Origin: Archaeoglobus neptunius
Lineage (GTDB): Archaea > Halobacteriota > Archaeoglobi > Archaeoglobales > Archaeoglobaceae
NCBI RefSeq assembly: GCF_016757965.1
Contig: NZ_JAEKIW010000012.1
Coordinates: 1-64,000, forward strand
Direction: 5' to 3'
DNA: 64,000 nucleotides
Below are positions 4,243 to 59,670 of the stretch, piece after piece. Within the stretch, counting starts at the first letter, position 1, and each line of letters begins with the position of its first letter. The position numbers were made by a program, and so were the translations under genes. The notes under the pieces were generated by a model. The model worked only from the letters and a program-made list of their open reading frames with translations. It ran no database searches and was not told the origin of the DNA.

Positions 4243-5535
4243 TCAGGGAACGAGTCGATGCCTGTCCCTCGGGAAGAGAACGGCCTCTCTGACGTTCTTC
4301 AGTCCGAGCATTGACATCAGCAGTCTCTCCGCTCCCAGCCCCCATCCCGCATGTGGAGGCATGCCATAGCGGAAAGCTTCAAGGTAGAATCCGAAGCTTT
4401 CTGGCTCCATACCCTTCGCCCTTATGCTCTCAACGAGCATGTCATAGAGGTGAATTCTCTGAGCCCCGCTCGAAAGCTCAAGCCATCCGTGCATGAGGTC
4501 GAAGCTCTTGGTTATCTCCGGCCTGTCCTCATATGGCATGGCATAGAAGGGTTTTGATTCAGTCGGCCAGTCCACGATGAAATAAAGACCACCCAGTTCT
4601 TCCCCAACAAGCTTCAATGCGTTTGTGCTCAAGTCTTCACCCCATGGAATGCTCTCACCTTTTCTCTCTGCAAGTTCTCTTGCCTCGTCGTAGGTTATTT
4701 TCTCAAAGGGAAGTTCCGGAATTTCAATGGAAACTTCAAGCCAGTTAAGATATCTCTCACATTTTTCCGCAACATCGACGTAGATTCTGTGGACAAGTCT
4801 TTCAAGAACATCCATCACACCGTTGTGGTCTGTGAAACTCATCTCAATGTCAATCGAGATGGCCTCATTCAAATGCCTCGTGGTGTTGTGCTCTTCGGCC
4901 CTGAAGATAGGGCCTATCTCGAACACCTTCTCGAAGCCGGCCCCCATCAGAACCTGCTTGTAAAGCTGGGGGCTCTGGTTCAAGAACGCCTCCTTTTCAA
5001 AATAACTCAGTGGAAATAGCTCCGTACCGCCTTCAGTAGCAGTTGAGACAATTTTCGGGGTGTGCACTTCTATAAAACCCTCTTCTGATAAAAACTCTCT
5101 GACACTCTGCATCATCTGGTGCCTTATCCTGAAAATGGCCTGAACTCTCGGCCTTCTCAGATCCATAAAGCGGTGGTCAAGGCGTGTGTCAAGCTCTGCC
5201 GGAACTTTCTCCGTCACCTCCAGTGGCAGTGGAGCATCGGATCTGTTCAGCACCTCTATTGATTCTGGGATGATCTCAAATCCACCGGGAGCCTTGTCCT
5301 CTCTTTTTACCTCTCCCGTCACAGCGATTACGCTCTCCCTTCTGATTTTCTTGGCAAGTTTGAAGATTTCTTTGCTCACGAACTTCTTTGGCAGTGTGAT
5401 CTGGGCAAATCCTTCTCTATCTCTCAGCAGCAGAAAAACCAGCCCGCCGAGATCGCGAACTTCGTGAACCCATCCATAGAGCGTGACTTTTTTACCCTCC
5501 ATCTCGGGTTTTATGTCTGCGGTGTGAACTCGCAT
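4243..5535 (-). CDS. aspS: Aspartyl-tRNA synthetase
   Basis: A class II synthetase that charges tRNA-Asp. The N-terminal OB-fold anticodon domain ([16 protein letters not shown]) is followed by the catalytic core with motif 2 [15 protein letters not shown] and motif 3 [16 protein letters not shown]. The 430-residue length and lack of the bacterial GAD insertion identify the archaeal/eukaryotic type. In relatives lacking AsnRS this enzyme is non-discriminating and also makes Asp-tRNA-Asn for GatCAB. That is possible here but cannot be judged from the window. The ATG at 5535 is the first in frame. Confidence 0.96.
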
Positions 5536-5613
5536 GCATTTAAGTGGAGGGGCAGTTTTTAATTTTATTTATTTGCCAGAGATGGACAGGACGAAGCTGA
5601 AGAGGATAAAAAA

Positions 5614-6591
5614 TTATTTTAAAGATTCTGCAACCTTTGTGAGTTCCTCTTTTGTAATTGTACCGGAAATTGTTATTGTCAAACCATCTTTTTCAAACAC
5701 GAGCAAACCGGAACCGGCAATTTCAGTGTAGTATCCCTTATTTCCGTTAATGTCTATCTCCTCGTAATTTCCGGAAATCGGCATTTTTCGGGTGGTTTCA
5801 GTTAGGACAAGTCCCCCATCACCATACATCAGAGTCACGGTGCTGTTTCCAATGACACTGACCTTCTTCAGCTCAAAGCTTGCTGTGTAGCTCGGAACGA
5901 GGATGGTGAAGTTAACGTGTTTCTGCGCCTCACCAACAGTATCGAAATAGCTGATGCCAAAGTCCTCACCTGTTTTTATCCTGGCTCCTTTGGGTGGAGT
6001 GAACTCAAAAAGACTGTCGTTCACACCGGTGTTAAACTCAACATCTCTGTATTCGATAACGGATTTAATGCCCATAAATTCCATTTCGATTCTCAGTGGA
6101 TACCAGTGTTCTTTATCAACGTAAAGAACAGTCGGAGTAGCTGTTCCGTTTTTGGGAGTAAGCCTGAGTTTATAGCAATCCCTGCCGGAAACTTTCGAAA
6201 TACCGAGAAATTCCACATTATATCGGTCGAGCATGTTTTTGATGTATTTTCCGTAATCAGGTTCCGCCTGCTGAATGCCAGTGTCCAGCACCGTGACCTC
6301 GTTGTTTTTCATGTCGTAGATCCACGTTTTGGATCCATTGGTTATGGTCAGCAACCCCATCTCCTTGCTGTACATTCTCGCCTTGTTCGGTTTTTTGAAC
6401 ACGTATTCATACGTCATCTCAAATTTGCCTGCTTTCCCTTCGGCTGAAATGACCATTGTACCCTTGAAATCCTGGATGTTCTCATATTTTTCCTCTAGCT
6501 TTTTCGCTATATCCTCCGCACTCATCACCCCTGTTTGTGTGCATCCCAGCACCAGCAGAGTGATAAACACGCATGCTAGCAGCCGTCTCAT
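5614..6591 (-). CDS. LolA-like exported lipoprotein
   Basis: The 325-residue protein begins MRRLLACVFITLLVLGC, a positively charged and hydrophobic signal ending in a lipobox (LVLGC), so it is probably lipid-anchored outside the membrane. Residues about 20-220 resemble the LolA/LolB-like outer-membrane-lipoprotein-sorting fold found in archaeal secreted proteins (phrases such as DFKGTMVISAEGKAGKFEMTYEY and YPLRIEME). The last ~90 residues form a second beta domain resembling the DUF4367 or similar C-terminal domains. A TATA box (6612-6620) lies 25 bases before the ATG at 6591, so I prefer this start to the ORF start at 6609. Function unknown; it may carry a hydrophobic ligand. Confidence 0.75.
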   Translation of the reverse strand: MRRLLACVFITLLVLGCTQTGVMSAEDIAKKLEEKYENIQDFKGTMVISAEGKAGKFEMTYEYVFKKPNKARMYSKEMGLLTITNGSKTWIYDMKNNEVTVLDTGIQQAEPDYGKYIKNMLDRYNVEFLGISKVSGRDCYKLRLTPKNGTATPTVLYVDKEHWYPLRIEMEFMGIKSVIEYRDVEFNTGVNDSLFEFTPPKGARIKTGEDFGISYFDTVGEAQKHVNFTILVPSYTASFELKKVSVIGNSTVTLMYGDGGLVLTETTRKMPISGNYEEIDINGNKGYYTEIAGSGLLVFEKDGLTITISGTITKEELTKVAESLK

Positions 6592-6611
6592 ACTGACATG
6601 CCATCCCACCT

Positions 6612-6620
6612 CTATATAAT
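6612..6620 (-). promoter_or_regulatory. TATA box of the LolA-like lipoprotein gene
   Basis: On the minus strand this reads ATTATATAG. Its centre is 25 bases before the ATG at 6591, which indicates a leaderless message and helps choose that start. Confidence 0.5.
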
Positions 6621-6673
6621 ACTTTTGCTAGCAGATTTCAGTCATTTTTTTAACTTAAATAATTAAAAATTTC

Positions 6674-7429
6674 ATGGAGTGGAACGATATCGGAAGGGAG
6701 ATTGTAGAAATTTTGAAGCTGAGAATACCACCCGTCGGTGTCGTGTTCTATGAGGAAAAATATGAGCCTGAAAAGGTATTCAAACCCTCCAAGTATGGAA
6801 TAAAAATGGCCGTATGCCAGGCAATAGCCTTTGCACGTTATATCGGCAGAACCGTGGTTCTGGAGGCTGAGGACTTTGCGTGTCCACCGTCTGAAATTCT
6901 TTATGGTGTAGCATCATATGATGGAGGACTCAAGGAAATACTGCTTGGAGCTCAGTGGATAAGGGAGCCAGAATGCGAGGTTGTAGAGAGAACTCTTCCT
7001 CCGGGCAAGTACAAAACGTTTGTATTTGGGGACATGACAGGGATGAAGGAGAAGCCGGAAGTCATCCTGATTTTTGGAACTCCCGCCCAAATTGGGAGGC
7101 TGATTCAGGCAAAAACATTTTTTGGTGGAAGTGTGAAGGCGTCGCTTACTGCAAAAACTGCGTCCTGTGCCGAGGCTCTGTTTCCCGCATTACTAAGTGG
7201 GGAAGTCTCAATTGCCGTTCCGGGTGCTGGAGACAGAGTATTCGCTGCGGTAAATGAAACTGAAATGATATTTGCCATGCCATACGGTTGGACTGGCAGG
7301 ATTCTGGAAGGTCTTAAAAACGCTGGCAAAGGGGCGAATATCAGCTATCCACCCTCTCCGTTCCTCATGTATACACCGAGATTTCCGAAACACTACAGAG
7401 AGACAGCAGAAAAGTTCAGGAGGATCTAG
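6674..7429 (+). CDS. DUF169-family protein
   Basis: A 251-residue member of the uncharacterised DUF169 (COG2043) family, common in anaerobic archaea and bacteria. Family features are PPVGVVFYEE near the N-terminus, the conserved C-Q-A-I-A-F-A-R segment, the FACPPSEILYG box with cysteine, and MPYGWTGRILEG towards the end. Three to four conserved cysteines suggest metal or Fe-S binding, but this has not been shown. The 3' end overlaps the convergent Rossmann/cysteine-rich gene by 4 bases. The ATG at 6674 follows an AT-rich stretch that could hold its TATA element. Confidence 0.8.
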   Translation: MEWNDIGREIVEILKLRIPPVGVVFYEEKYEPEKVFKPSKYGIKMAVCQAIAFARYIGRTVVLEAEDFACPPSEILYGVASYDGGLKEILLGAQWIREPECEVVERTLPPGKYKTFVFGDMTGMKEKPEVILIFGTPAQIGRLIQAKTFFGGSVKASLTAKTASCAEALFPALLSGEVSIAVPGAGDRVFAAVNETEMIFAMPYGWTGRILEGLKNAGKGANISYPPSPFLMYTPRFPKHYRETAEKFRRI

Positions 7430-54287: not shown

Positions 54288-54995
54288 TCAGTCTTCCAGA
54301 TACCTTTCCCTCTCCCAGAGCTCCTCAAGGAACTTTTTCAAGATCTTCTGCTCTGCTGATCGGATATGGTGGAGGCATGTTGATTTTGCTATTCCGAATT
54401 TTTCGGAGAGTTCTTTAAGATTTACTTTTCTGGGCCACTCGAAGTATCCTGATCTGTAAGCTTCAAACAGTACCTTTTTCTGCTTCATGGATAGCTCAGA
54501 TAAAAGCTGATCGATGATGTCGTCAAACTCTTCCTTCGCATCTCCCAAATTGGCAATGCTAAGAACTTCGAGATCTATGTTTTCGACCCCCTCCAACTTT
54601 TTGAGAGCCTCTCCAAGTTTTTCTTCGTAGACTAGAACGGTCCAGTATTCGTGTCCGTTGTGGATGACTATCCTTGTGGGCATGATGTCGAGACCAAAAA
54701 TGTTCTCATAAAAGGTGGATTTCGGGGTAAATCTGCCATGAATGTATACGATAAGCTTTTTTCGGCTTATTACAGTCAACTCCTTTGCCAGATCTCCGTA
54801 ACTGTACATGTCTTTGATAAAACTCGATAATGCGTCATAGTTCTCTGCCACAAGTTTAAAGTTTGCCCTTATCTCATCCGAAATCTTGAATACTCCGGTA
54901 ACAATGAGATAGACCCCTGGATGGTTCCTGGTTATCTCTATTGACCAGCATCCGGGATGCCAGAGTTTAAGAACTACCTCCTTCAACCCCTCCAT
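54288..54995 (-). CDS. Bat-type (HTH_10) transcriptional regulator
   Basis: A 235-residue protein. The C-terminal HTH of the bacterioopsin-activator type is clear (LSMKQKKVLFEAYRSGYFEWPRKVNLKELSEKFGIAKSTCLHHIRSAEQKILKKFLEELW, about 168-228). The N-terminal ~160 residues form the alpha/beta sensor-like half seen in archaeal Bat relatives (PGVYLIVTGVF, LIVYIHGRFTPKS). It lies immediately downstream of the POR operon on the same strand (31 bases after porB) and is therefore the leading candidate to control por and the divergent aor. The ligand is unknown. Confidence 0.83.
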   Translation of the reverse strand: MEGLKEVVLKLWHPGCWSIEITRNHPGVYLIVTGVFKISDEIRANFKLVAENYDALSSFIKDMYSYGDLAKELTVISRKKLIVYIHGRFTPKSTFYENIFGLDIMPTRIVIHNGHEYWTVLVYEEKLGEALKKLEGVENIDLEVLSIANLGDAKEEFDDIIDQLLSELSMKQKKVLFEAYRSGYFEWPRKVNLKELSEKFGIAKSTCLHHIRSAEQKILKKFLEELWERERYLED

Positions 54996-55026
54996 TTTAG
55001 AGAATTAAATCTGATAAAATATAACT

Positions 55027-55962
55027 TTAACCAAGCGCATTCTGAGCGGAGAGACGAATGAAGCTTGGAAGTTCATGATCCCTTATCCCGACAAGTCTGT
55101 TCCATCTGTCATTTATGTACTTTTTAATTTCCCTGATTTCCGATTCGGTGAGTCCGGAGAACCTGCCCTGCGAGGAAAGATATTCCTGAACATCTTTCAT
55201 CTTTTTCTTTCCTTTTGCTATCAGGTCGCTTGCACCTGTAAAACTGAATCTTCCTTCAGAGTACTCGAAAAGAATCCACATCCCCGTCTCAACTGCCAGT
55301 CTTGCGATGTGGACAGTCCTGTTCATCGGAAAACGCCAACCCGGGGGGCACGGAGCGTGAATTTCTATGTATCTGAATCCTCTGATTTCTCTAGCCTTTC
55401 TGACCTTCTCGTAGAGGTCTCCGAGGTACCCGATCGAGGCAGTTGAGACGTAAGGAACGTTGTGGGTTAGCAGTATCTCTGCAACATCCTTTCTGTGTTC
55501 CTTTTTCCCCTTCCAGGTGGTTGTCGTCCATGCACCATATGGTGTAGCGGAACTCCTCTGGATGCCCGTATTCGAATAGATCTCATTGTTGTAGCAGATG
55601 TAGATTATGTCCTCATTCCTCTCAGCAGCACCACTCAGAGCCTGAAGGCCGATGTCGTACGTTCCTCCATCTCCCGCCCACACAACCACCACTGTATCAT
55701 CACCCTGCATTTCCAGTGAGGCCCTGATTCCGGATGCAGTTGCTGCGGCAGCGGCAAAAGCTGTGTTGAATACAGGAATCCTTATGGCAGAATTTGGATA
55801 CGGCCCCATGTAAACTGACGTGCAGCACGCTGGTACCACCAGAATCGCCTTACCACCGAGGGCCTTAAGAACTGTCCTCAGGGCCATCGATGATGGACAG
55901 CCGTGACAGGCAGCATTTCCAGGAAGAAGAAACTCCTCCCTTTCAATTTCCGAGATTTTCAC
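55027..55962 (-). CDS. porB: 2-Oxoacid:ferredoxin oxidoreductase, beta subunit
   Basis: The 311-residue thiamine diphosphate subunit. NAACHGCPSSMALR supplies the paired Fe-S cysteines, VVWAGDGGTYDIGLQALSGAAERNEDIIYICYNNEIYSNTG is the TPP-Mg motif (GDG...N), and HAPCPPGWRFP gives a further cluster cysteine. It most resembles pyruvate/2-ketoisovalerate oxidoreductase beta subunits. The start is a GTG at 55962 with GGAGGTGAT just upstream, overlapping the porA stop by 4 bases (GTGA). It oxidises a 2-oxoacid with CoA, giving acyl-CoA, CO2 and reduced ferredoxin. Which 2-oxoacid is not decidable. Confidence 0.9.
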   Translation of the reverse strand: MKISEIEREEFLLPGNAACHGCPSSMALRTVLKALGGKAILVVPACCTSVYMGPYPNSAIRIPVFNTAFAAAAATASGIRASLEMQGDDTVVVVWAGDGGTYDIGLQALSGAAERNEDIIYICYNNEIYSNTGIQRSSATPYGAWTTTTWKGKKEHRKDVAEILLTHNVPYVSTASIGYLGDLYEKVRKAREIRGFRYIEIHAPCPPGWRFPMNRTVHIARLAVETGMWILFEYSEGRFSFTGASDLIAKGKKKMKDVQEYLSSQGRFSGLTESEIREIKKYINDRWNRLVGIRDHELPSFIRLSAQNALG

Positions 55963-57086
55963 ATTATCACCTCCTTAATCCAGATTTTTCTCTCAAAAAT
56001 CGCTTTTTCGATTGTCCTCTTCGTTACGTCCACACCTCCGATTCCAACAATCCTCGGTACGATTTTGGCATCAGAAAATGCGAGAGCAGCCCTGATCTCT
56101 GTGTAGAGCTGCCCTCCAGAACCCGGACTTATCGCCCTGTCAAAGACAACTACCCGCTTACCATCGAGAACCCTCCTGATATCTTTTTCGGGAAATGGCC
56201 TGAATGATTTCAACCTCAGGAGGCCAACCCTTACATTTTTGTTTCTGAGACTGTCAACTGCAACTCTGGCTTCGGAGGCAACCGCTCCCATCGCAACAAC
56301 AATAATATCTGCATCCTCGGTTTTGTACTCCTCAATGGTTAGGGGTACTCTCCTTCCTGAAAGCTCCAAGAACTCTTCCTCTACCTCCCTCATCACCTTC
56401 AAAGCCCTGTCATGTGCCTTCTGTATGCTGTGCCTGAATTCCGCAAAGTAGATCGGAAGCAGGATATTTCCGTGGGTAAAGGGATTATCAGCATCAAGCT
56501 TCCAGTTAGGATCGTACTCATCGAGAAAGCCGTCAAAGCCGGTGAGTTCAACCGGCATTGTGGTGTGGGACAGAACAAAACCGTCGTAACAGACCATTGC
56601 TGGAAGCATAACCTTTCTGTTTTCTGCAACCCGGTAGGCCATTGCGATGGTATCGTAGATCTCCTGAATGCTGCTGCAGTAGAACTGGATCCATCCGGTA
56701 TCCCTCTGGCTCAGAGAATCGCTAAGGTCTGCCCAGATATTCCAACCCGGACCTATTGCTCTGTTTGCCACACTCATCACAACGGGTGTCCTTGCGTTTG
56801 CAGCCCAGTGAAGCATTTCATGCATGTAGGCAAGTCCATGGCTGGATGTTGCGGTAAACGTTCTTGATCCTGCTGCACTTGCTCCAATGCACGCTGCCAT
56901 CGCTGAATGTTCCGACTCAACCCTGATCAATTTGGCCCTCATTTCTCCGTTTTCGATCAGCTTCGAAAGCGTCTCAACGACTGGAGTCGATGGGGTGATG
57001 GGATAGGCTGCTATAACTCTCACTCTGGAGTTCATTGCAGAGAAAGCTGCGCTCTCGTTTCCCGTTAGCATTTTAACCTCCGGCAT
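55959..57086 (-). CDS. porA: 2-Oxoacid:ferredoxin oxidoreductase, alpha subunit
   Basis: The 375-residue subunit binding the pyrimidine side of TPP. It has MLTGNESAAFSAMNSRVRVIAAYPITPSTPVVETLS, the ESEHSAMAACIGASAAGSRTFTATSSHGL segment and the C-terminal domain II (DADIIVVAMGAVASEARVAVDSLR). ATG 57086 is 8 bases after GGAGGTG at the end of the fused gamma-delta gene, so I do not use the frame opening at 57119. The overlap with that gene is 14 bases. POR and VOR alpha subunits are similar, so specificity stays open. Confidence 0.9.
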   Translation of the reverse strand: MPEVKMLTGNESAAFSAMNSRVRVIAAYPITPSTPVVETLSKLIENGEMRAKLIRVESEHSAMAACIGASAAGSRTFTATSSHGLAYMHEMLHWAANARTPVVMSVANRAIGPGWNIWADLSDSLSQRDTGWIQFYCSSIQEIYDTIAMAYRVAENRKVMLPAMVCYDGFVLSHTTMPVELTGFDGFLDEYDPNWKLDADNPFTHGNILLPIYFAEFRHSIQKAHDRALKVMREVEEEFLELSGRRVPLTIEEYKTEDADIIVVAMGAVASEARVAVDSLRNKNVRVGLLRLKSFRPFPEKDIRRVLDGKRVVVFDRAISPGSGGQLYTEIRAALAFSDAKIVPRIVGIGGVDVTKRTIEKAIFERKIWIKEVIM

Positions 57087-57942
57087 CTGCAAGCACCTCC
57101 CGGTTACTTTTGATTGCACGTCTCGGGCATACGGCAGAACAGATAAGACAGCCCTTGCAGAACTCGTATTCGATCTCGACTTTTTCGTTAACCATCATTG
57201 CACCTTCAGGACAGTGGAACCAGCAGTTCAGGCACATGTTGCACTTTTCGTATTCAATTTCTGGCCTAAAGTCTCTCCAGAAGCCTGTTCTACCAGCAAC
57301 ACCGGGCGAAGGCATGGAGATTGGCAGTTCCACCTTTATCTTCTCCATTTTTACCGGACTATACTTCTTTCTGCCCTTTACGACAGCATGAATGGCATTT
57401 TCGTAAGCTTTTCTGGCAGCCAGAACGTTTTCAATTCCAAATTTCTTTCTGATGGTTTTTTCAAGGACCTTAAATCCGATGTTTACCTTGAGTGCTTCAA
57501 AGGCTCTCATAACCGCCCCGAGAACCGTCGTGCTGACCACCGGTGTTCCCGCAAGCAGCAGGTTGTGTTCGATTGCTATTCCCGTCGCATCTGTTGTGAT
57601 GATATGGAGGAACTTTTGTTCGAATTCGAATTCATCCGGTTTTCTGGTTGTGTTTATCACGATAACTCCTCCCTCTTTAACTCCAGAAAACACATCAATC
57701 GACCTCATAATCAGAGGGTCGAGAACCACAACAATGTTTGGGTGGTAAACCTGACTTGTTTCGTAAATATTTTCATTTGAGATTCTTGTGAACGCAACAA
57801 CCGGTGCTCCTCTCCTCTCGGCACCGAAAAATGGCATTGACTGGCTTTTTAAACCAGTGAGATGGGCGACCCCGGCCAGTAATTTGCTTGCCGTTACCGC
57901 CCCCTGCCCCCCTCTCCCGTGAAACCGGATCTCCAGCTTCAT
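57073..57942 (-). CDS. 2-Oxoacid:ferredoxin oxidoreductase, fused gamma-delta subunit
   Basis: A 289-residue fusion. Residues 1-180 are the gamma domain (MKLEIRFHGRGGQGAVTASKLLAGVA...GAERRGAPVVAFTRIS). Residues about 200-289 are the delta ferredoxin domain, with PGVAGRTGFWRDFRPEIEYEKC and two clusters CNMCLNCWFHCPEGA and CKGCLICSAVCPRRA. Gamma and delta are separate genes in most archaeal PORs. It is the first gene of the operon. A TATA (TTATATAG, minus strand 57971-57964) lies 25 bases before its ATG, with a palindrome just beyond. It accepts electrons from the TPP subunits and passes them to ferredoxin. Confidence 0.9.
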   Translation of the reverse strand: MKLEIRFHGRGGQGAVTASKLLAGVAHLTGLKSQSMPFFGAERRGAPVVAFTRISNENIYETSQVYHPNIVVVLDPLIMRSIDVFSGVKEGGVIVINTTRKPDEFEFEQKFLHIITTDATGIAIEHNLLLAGTPVVSTTVLGAVMRAFEALKVNIGFKVLEKTIRKKFGIENVLAARKAYENAIHAVVKGRKKYSPVKMEKIKVELPISMPSPGVAGRTGFWRDFRPEIEYEKCNMCLNCWFHCPEGAMMVNEKVEIEYEFCKGCLICSAVCPRRAIKSNREVLADAGG

Positions 57943-57963
57943 AATTTATCATTGTTTTTCATC

Positions 57964-58017
57964 CTATATAACGGAAAATGCGAACATGTTTGCATTCTGT
58001 GAAAAAAGCTTTTAAAA
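57964..58017. promoter_or_regulatory. Divergent por/aor promoters with a 20-bp central palindrome
   Basis: The minus TATA (57964-57971) is 25 bases before the por ATG and the plus TATA (CTTTTAAAA, 58009-58017) is 23 bases before the aor ATG, so both messages look leaderless. Between them AATGCGAACATGTTTGCATT (57977-57996) matches its own reverse complement at 18 of 20 positions. Its centre is about 20 and 27 bases from the two TATA centres, fitting a shared activator or repressor site. Confidence 0.65.
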
Positions 58018-58035
58018 TTGCAGGGAATAAATATT

Positions 58036-59670
58036 ATGCGAGCCATTGAGGTCGATCTTACAGCGAACGAGGTATATGAGAGAATTCTGGATTCTGAATT
58101 TTTCGGCGGAAAGGGTGTGGCTGTCAATCTAATGCTGGATGAAATCAAGAAAGGTATCGACCCGCTGTCTCCCGATAACCTGCTTATCTTTGCAACAGGT
58201 CCGCTAAACGGCATAAATCTCAGTGGAGCTTCGAGAGCTACCTGTCATTTCAAATCCCCGATGACCGGTGGTTACGGTGAATCTCAGTGTGGTGGGTACA
58301 TCGCCTATGAAATGAAAAAAACTGGTGTGGATTTTTTGATGATAAAGGGAAAGGCAGAGAGACCGGTCTACATTCTGGTGGAGAATGGTGAAGTGAAGAT
58401 TATCTCTGCAGAAAAACTGTGGGGAAAGGATTCCTATAAAGTTGAGGATTATCTTCGGGAAAAGCATGGTGGGGAGATTCTGTCCATCGGACAGGCAGGG
58501 GAGAATCTGGTCAGGTTTGCGTGCATAAACCATCGAAGGGGTAGGCAGTTTGGTAGGGGTGGAGGAGGAGCCGTGATGGGTTCCAAAAATCTTAAAGCAG
58601 TGGTCTTCAGAGGAAACAGGAGAAAAATTGATGTGGCAAATCCGGAGGAGCTGAGAGAATTCAGGAAATGGCTAAACGGGAAGGTTAAGAAGACTCACAG
58701 GAGTCTGACAGTATACGGGACATCCGGGATGATGAGCCTCGTCAACGAACTTGGAGTTCTCCCGACAAGATACTGGCAGAAGGGAAGATTTGATGGAGCC
58801 GAGCGCATGAGCGGTGAGGAGATAAAGAAATATTTCGTTAAAAGCACCGCTTGTTATGGCTGTTCTGTTGCGTGTGGAAAACTTGCAAGGGTCGGGAATT
58901 GCGAGACAGAGATAGAGTATGAAACTCTGTTCGCCCTGGGAGCTCTCTGTGAAAATGAAAATGTTGAAGACCTGATCAGAGCCGCTGAGCTTTGCGACAG
59001 GTATGGGATGGACACGATCTCAGCAGGAAATGTAATCGCCTTCTGGATGGCAAACGGCAGGGCTGAGTTCGGAAATTCTTCAGAAGTTATCAGGCTGGTT
59101 GAGAAAATAGCCTTCAGGAGGGATGAGGGAAACATTCTTGCAGAAGGTGTAAAAAGGGCCGGTGAAGTTCTTGGGAGTGAGGTGGAGGCCATACATATAA
59201 AAGGCCTGGAACCGGCTGGGTACGACCCGAGAGGCTTGTACGGCATGGCCATCGGCTATGCCACATCTCCGAGAGGAGCATGCCATATGAGGAGCTGCGC
59301 ATATCGCCCAAATCTGACGGGCCATCTGAACAGGCTCAGCATTCAGGGTCAGGCTGAAATGGTAAAGGACTACGAGGATTTCTATGCTGTAATCGATTCA
59401 ATGGTTTATTGTCGTTTTCTCTGCCTGCCAGTTATAGGCCCAGTTTACTGGGAGGAACTCTCCAAGCTTTATGGAATTGTTACAGGTGAAAAGAAAGATG
59501 TTGACGAATTCAAGGAGGTTGGGGAGAGAATCAACGATCTGGCGAGGGAGTTCAATATTAGGGAGGGAGTTACCGATTACTATCTACCAAAGACTTTTGT
59601 TGAGGCTATCGGTAAGGAAAATCTTGATAAAATGATTGGAGAGTATTTGAGGCTGAGAGGTTGGAGATGA
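58036..59670 (+). CDS. aor: Aldehyde:ferredoxin oxidoreductase (tungsten/molybdopterin enzyme)
   Basis: A 544-residue AOR-family enzyme that oxidises aldehydes to acids with ferredoxin. Domain 1 has the pterin-binding GGKGVAVNLML, GPLNGINLSGASRATCHFKSPMTGGYGESQCGGYIAYEMKK and GRGGGGAVMGSKNLKAV segments. The 4Fe-4S ligands are STACYGCSVACGK plus a late cysteine in MVYCRFLCLP. It is shorter than Pyrococcus AOR (~605). The start ATG 58036 is supported by a TATA 23 bases upstream. Promoter sharing with the 2-oxoacid oxidoreductase suggests it removes aldehydes formed by side reactions of that enzyme. Confidence 0.92.
   Translation: MRAIEVDLTANEVYERILDSEFFGGKGVAVNLMLDEIKKGIDPLSPDNLLIFATGPLNGINLSGASRATCHFKSPMTGGYGESQCGGYIAYEMKKTGVDFLMIKGKAERPVYILVENGEVKIISAEKLWGKDSYKVEDYLREKHGGEILSIGQAGENLVRFACINHRRGRQFGRGGGGAVMGSKNLKAVVFRGNRRKIDVANPEELREFRKWLNGKVKKTHRSLTVYGTSGMMSLVNELGVLPTRYWQKGRFDGAERMSGEEIKKYFVKSTACYGCSVACGKLARVGNCETEIEYETLFALGALCENENVEDLIRAAELCDRYGMDTISAGNVIAFWMANGRAEFGNSSEVIRLVEKIAFRRDEGNILAEGVKRAGEVLGSEVEAIHIKGLEPAGYDPRGLYGMAIGYATSPRGACHMRSCAYRPNLTGHLNRLSIQGQAEMVKDYEDFYAVIDSMVYCRFLCLPVIGPVYWEELSKLYGIVTGEKKDVDEFKEVGERINDLAREFNIREGVTDYYLPKTFVEAIGKENLDKMIGEYLRLRGWR

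Follow-up and report, generated by a model that had tools for sequence, protein, structure and literature searches.

The 64,000-nt window of Archaeoglobus neptunius DNA analysed here is part of a 2,115,826-bp assembly made up of 32 contigs. On the minus strand, porGD-porA-porB are followed by a gene encoding an HTH_10 protein, and aor lies on the plus strand (Table 1). The start codons of por (ATG, 57942, minus) and aor (ATG, 58036) are separated by 93 nt (57943-58035), and the TATA boxes are centred ~25 nt (por) and ~22 nt (aor) from the respective start codons. A first-pass annotation had described the start codons, the 93-base gap, two outward-facing TATA boxes and, between them, a near-perfect 20-bp palindrome; all were present, and the palindrome was correct in both coordinates and letters, with 18 of 20 positions equal to its own reverse complement. 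At por, a pyrimidine-rich BRE region, ATTTTCCG, adjoins a strong TATA box. The stretch that contains the TATA box of the HTH_10 gene is common to the HTH_10 promoters of A. neptunius and four relatives (G008, G009, G010 and G012).

Table 1. Genes and promoter features at the por/aor locus (positions in the 64,000-nt window)
Feature	Position	Strand	Remarks
HTH_10 regulator, 235 aa, candidate protein for the site	54288..54995	minus	Pfam HTH_10 E=2e-20; pLDDT 86
TATA box of the HTH_10 gene, TTATATTT	55017..55024	minus	inside TTAAAGTTATATT stretch
porB, beta subunit	55027..55962	minus	best NCBIfam PRK11864 (3-methyl-2-oxobutanoate dehydrogenase subunit beta)
porA, alpha subunit	55959..57119	minus	
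porGD, fused gamma-delta subunit, 2-oxoacid:ferredoxin oxidoreductase	57073..57942	minus	Pfam POR + Fer4; NCBIfam PorC_KorC, PorD_KorD
por TATA box, TTATATAG	57964..57971	minus	exactly 13 nt downstream of CATG
imperfect palindrome, AATGCGAACATGTTTGCATT	57977..57996	none	18/20; outer arms specific to this genome
por promoter core, AACATGTTCG	57981..57990	minus	CATG at 57985-57988; identical in 9/16 por promoters; CATG offset constant in 16/16
aor TATA-like box, TTTTAAAA	58010..58017	plus	21 nt from CATG; preceded by GTGAAAAAAGC (A-rich, BRE-like)
aor, AOR-family tungsten aldehyde:ferredoxin oxidoreductase	58036..59670	plus	Pfam AFOR_N/AFOR_C; PDB relatives include 1aor

The length of the palindrome had been considered unlikely by chance, which was not borne out: the window contained six 20-mers with at least 9 of 10 positions paired, and such a 20-mer arose in 1.3% of gap shuffles. 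Genome-wide motif scans were performed as pattern searches. With up to three mismatches allowed, the 20-mer occurred once in the 2.1-Mb genome, and the scan that the annotation had suggested gave no further matches.

A protein search of 55 genomes of the family yielded 16 with a fused porGD. In every one of the 16, a CATG-centred site preceded the por TATA box by exactly 13 nt, and this conserved core and spacing supported the proposal that the 20-mer region is a regulatory element of por. The promoter element read AACATGTTCG in nine genomes, which span three genera, ATCATGAT in four and TTCATGTT in three. Within the Archaeoglobus-type set, mean pairwise identity was 0.97 for the core, 0.93 for the TATA box, 0.50 for the spacer and 0.35 for the upstream flank, and none of 20,000 shuffles matched the observed conserved block. 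Since four-fold degenerate sites of porA were saturated (0.24-0.43 identity), the core identity of 0.97 indicates strong selection. Alignment of the relatives' gaps, also suggested earlier, showed conservation of only part of the palindrome: the inner AACATGTTCG was conserved, but the outer arms AATGC/GCATT were not, with 9 of 10 positions paired in A. neptunius only and 4-8 in relatives. The full 20-bp palindrome is peculiar to the A. neptunius genome. Its 20-bp extent is mostly incidental, and the site is exceptional through its conservation, which is confined to the inner AACATGTTCG. A functionless palindrome arising by chance, as the abundance of similar palindromes in the window and in gap shuffles might suggest, is extremely improbable, given that core and spacing were kept across 16 genomes despite saturated silent sites; the chance reading is refuted for the core and applies at most to the arms.

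The variants of the site were informative about its symmetry. The 8-bp dyad was intact in 13 of the 16 por promoters. ATCATGAT, found in four genomes and in the second por locus of G009, alters both half-sites at once, as dyad recognition predicts, and the compensating change from AACATGTT to ATCATGAT fits a dimer that would read the dyad. In three genomes of the Geoglobus clade (G027, G028 and G030), TTCATGTT disrupts the dyad, and the TATA box is also changed. Decayed second HTH10-por clusters were seen in two genomes, at G009:C20 (L132, G009:C20:55000-70000, 5367-6875) and G011:C217 (L133, 1394-3686); in the former the HTH_10 gene has an open frame and por is present merely as remnants. Both decayed loci retain CATG, the 13-nt interval and the TATA box.

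Linkage of the site to the HTH_10 gene was observed directly. The gene lies within ~4 kb of por in 16/16 porGD genomes and directly upstream of porGD in 14 (HTH10-porGD-porA-porB). The exceptions are A. neptunius, where it lies behind porB, and G008, where it is ~4 kb upstream beside a cstA-like gene (by inspection); the site remains at por in both. Beyond the 16 por genomes, an orthologue of the regulator (53-64% identity among orthologues) turned up only in G023, at a contig end; best matches in the remaining genomes had E values of 5e-15 or weaker. The exact promoter distance, together with the same neighbouring regulator gene in 16 genomes, makes AACATGTTCG very probably the binding site of this regulator. 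By inspection, a gene resembling amino-acid dehydrogenases often trails HTH10-porGD-porA-porB, and in three genomes (L069, L070 and L075) the por cluster has cstA-like and ArsA-like ATPase genes as neighbours, hinting at peptide or pyruvate uptake tied to por. A second conserved element, approximately CATGGTCGAAA, usually ~12 nt ahead of the regulator gene's own TATA box, was noted in the Geoglobus/Ferroglobus clade, in the HTH_10 promoters of G024, G026, G027, G028, G030 and G023; autoregulation of the HTH_10 gene is possible.

The first-pass annotation had named a Bat-type protein as the natural candidate. The protein itself (54288-54995) stood, with strict co-occurrence and linkage in 16/16 genomes; "Bat-type" is true of its HTH_10 domain alone. 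Bat proteins, named for the bacterio-opsin activator of haloarchaea, combine REC, PAS, GAF and BAT domains with a C-terminal DNA-binding HTH_10 domain (PMC5847659). The regulator shares the latter, a full-length match to the C-terminal HTH_10 profile (PF04967) at residues 168-220. HTH_10 was its sole Pfam match. With no REC, PAS, GAF or BAT sensor domain detected, the regulator does not qualify as a Bat protein. Instead, its N-terminal half was predicted to consist of repeated beta-alpha-beta, ferredoxin-like units, and its HTH resembled sigma region 4 in the predicted structure. Searching PDB sequences with the alignment of the regulator returned nothing significant. In fold searches, the N-terminal half had no clear PDB relative, with a borderline match to Thermoplasma Ta1207 (E=1e-3, TM 0.43), and the HTH resembled -35-binding domains of sigma factors (TM ~0.6 of the short target, E ~0.1). 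The recognition-helix stretch KSTCLHH was invariant across A1. Distant full-length homologues (30-34%) were seen in Haladaptatus (L181-L183), with no por within the flanks examined. In the open-licence literature, we found no binding site for any HTH_10 protein outside the Bat family, which is not proof of absence.

To our reading, the site has essentially one target. When the full architecture was searched with up to three mismatches, por was the sole site with 0-1 mismatch in each of nine genomes, and weaker matches were about as frequent as with a reversed control. A loose motif-plus-TATA pattern matched por in 8/8 Archaeoglobus-type relatives and in A. neptunius, and gave five scattered matches in 18 genomes without the regulator. 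Because por alone is near-perfect in each genome and the other matches are background, the site looks like a single-target operator. The same data bear on whether the site is instead occupied by some other DNA-binding protein, such as an amino-acid sensor of the Lrp/FFRP type, with the HTH_10 gene linked to por for a separate reason. Regulators of the Lrp type are universal and abundant in archaea (PMC2995911), but a near-perfect site found once per genome, at por only, is unlike that of a global regulator, and genomes without an HTH_10 orthologue showed only background-level matches; such a protein is an improbable occupant.

Several other matches were examined and rejected. A possible second A. 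neptunius target, TCGAACATGTTCGA (G000:C3:75650; L136:5653), a 14-bp perfect palindrome that extends across the start codon of a different 2-oxoacid:ferredoxin oxidoreductase, was absent in orthologues. Other AACATGTTCG matches in the A. neptunius genome were in coding DNA or away from promoters, and the motif-plus-TATA matches examined in other genomes were mostly in coding DNA or not at a por-like distance. In G022 (L185, G022:C1:1808000-1818000, 5076-5085), a paralogous AOR-family gene that diverges from a radical-SAM-like gene has CGAACATGTT 36 nt upstream; this match was not counted, being isolated and in a genome without the regulator.

We consider it probable (roughly 0.7) that AACATGTTCG is the por operator, and that the linked HTH_10 protein binds it as a dimer and activates porGD-porA-porB locally. 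We infer that the protein would bind the AACATGTT dyad as a dimer, always from the same face of the helix. Since CATG precedes the TATA box by 13 nt, the operator sits just upstream of the BRE, and the bound protein would most likely activate transcription by aiding TFB/TBP assembly. Such a switch for 2-oxoacid oxidation would be local, with essentially one target. The inducing signal is probably a metabolite related to 2-oxoacids or amino acids. Activation is the most likely mode, argued from site position only. The typical position of archaeal activators is upstream of the BRE, from where they recruit TBP or TFB (PMC5512572), and a conserved CATG-centred site just upstream of BRE/TATA was present in 16/16 por promoters, 13 of them with the dyad intact. 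Tar (TK0271) of Thermococcus kodakarensis, a metabolic regulator, has a comparable arrangement, with the palindrome TGGACA-N8-TGTCCA upstream of BRE/TATA, and activates in vitro (PMC6737238); the two sites differ in sequence and spacing, Tar governs three biosynthetic operons, and the por site is known from sequence. The activator EarA likewise has its sites immediately before the BRE in the fla promoter of Methanococcus maripaludis, which has a strong TATA box (PMC5512572), although EarA uses four 6-bp sites and por has one CATG-centred dyad at fixed spacing. A real operator used by a repressor, or repression by the HTH_10 protein itself, is unlikely but deserves weight, since only 5 nt separate the por TATA box from the upstream-lying start of the 20-mer and a wide footprint could hinder TFB at the BRE. 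Known archaeal repressors, however, typically cover BRE/TATA or sit downstream (PMC5512572), and the constant 13-nt spacing, the strong TATA box and the poor, pyrimidine-rich BRE position agree better with an activator.

The palindrome had also been read as letting one regulator control por and aor together, and this was not supported. Among aor orthologues with upstream DNA (L033-L055), none had AACATGTT upstream. CATG lies 13 nt from the TATA box on the por side in every genome and 21 nt from it toward aor. The aor gene adjoins the por cluster in only one relative, G002, with the HTH10 gene in between; there the motif was present at por and absent from the aor gap, which has only TTACATGTGG. 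Co-control is therefore unsupported, because the aor orthologues, that of G002 apart, are unlinked, those with upstream DNA are without the motif, and the aor TATA spacing differs. AOR could oxidise aldehyde by-products of 2-oxoacid oxidoreductases. This connection, the position of the site between both promoters, the adjoining aor in G002 and the occurrence of symmetric outer arms only where por and aor share a gap (chance given the core ~0.005 per site) speak for a shared bidirectional operator, with one regulator on the 20-bp palindrome; against the motif distribution and spacing above, and an aor promoter with its own A-rich, BRE-like stretch, we regard it as quite unlikely.

The history of the gap may explain its layout. 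The por half of the A. neptunius gap aligned with the HTH10-por gap of G002 (0/2000 shuffles as good), and the aor half aligned more weakly with the G002 HTH10-aor gap (16/2000 shuffles), mainly through TGTGAAAA..TTTTAAA. On these alignments, the simplest reading is that two once-separate gaps were fused after the regulator gene left. In A. neptunius that gene now follows porB and has its own promoter. As it no longer separates aor from por, the por operator faces aor directly. It is a long shot that this relocation, having put the operator between por and aor, was followed by the arms AATGC/GCATT making it symmetric and recruiting aor to a dedicated, non-Bat HTH_10 activator of one operon, with a ferredoxin-like sensor half and CATG locked 13 nt from the TATA box.

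A tempting claim of co-regulation, drawn from the gene order of one genome, is corrected by these comparisons. What they offer is a precise candidate regulator-site pair with fixed geometry, testable in vitro for cultured species that carry it, including A. neptunius.
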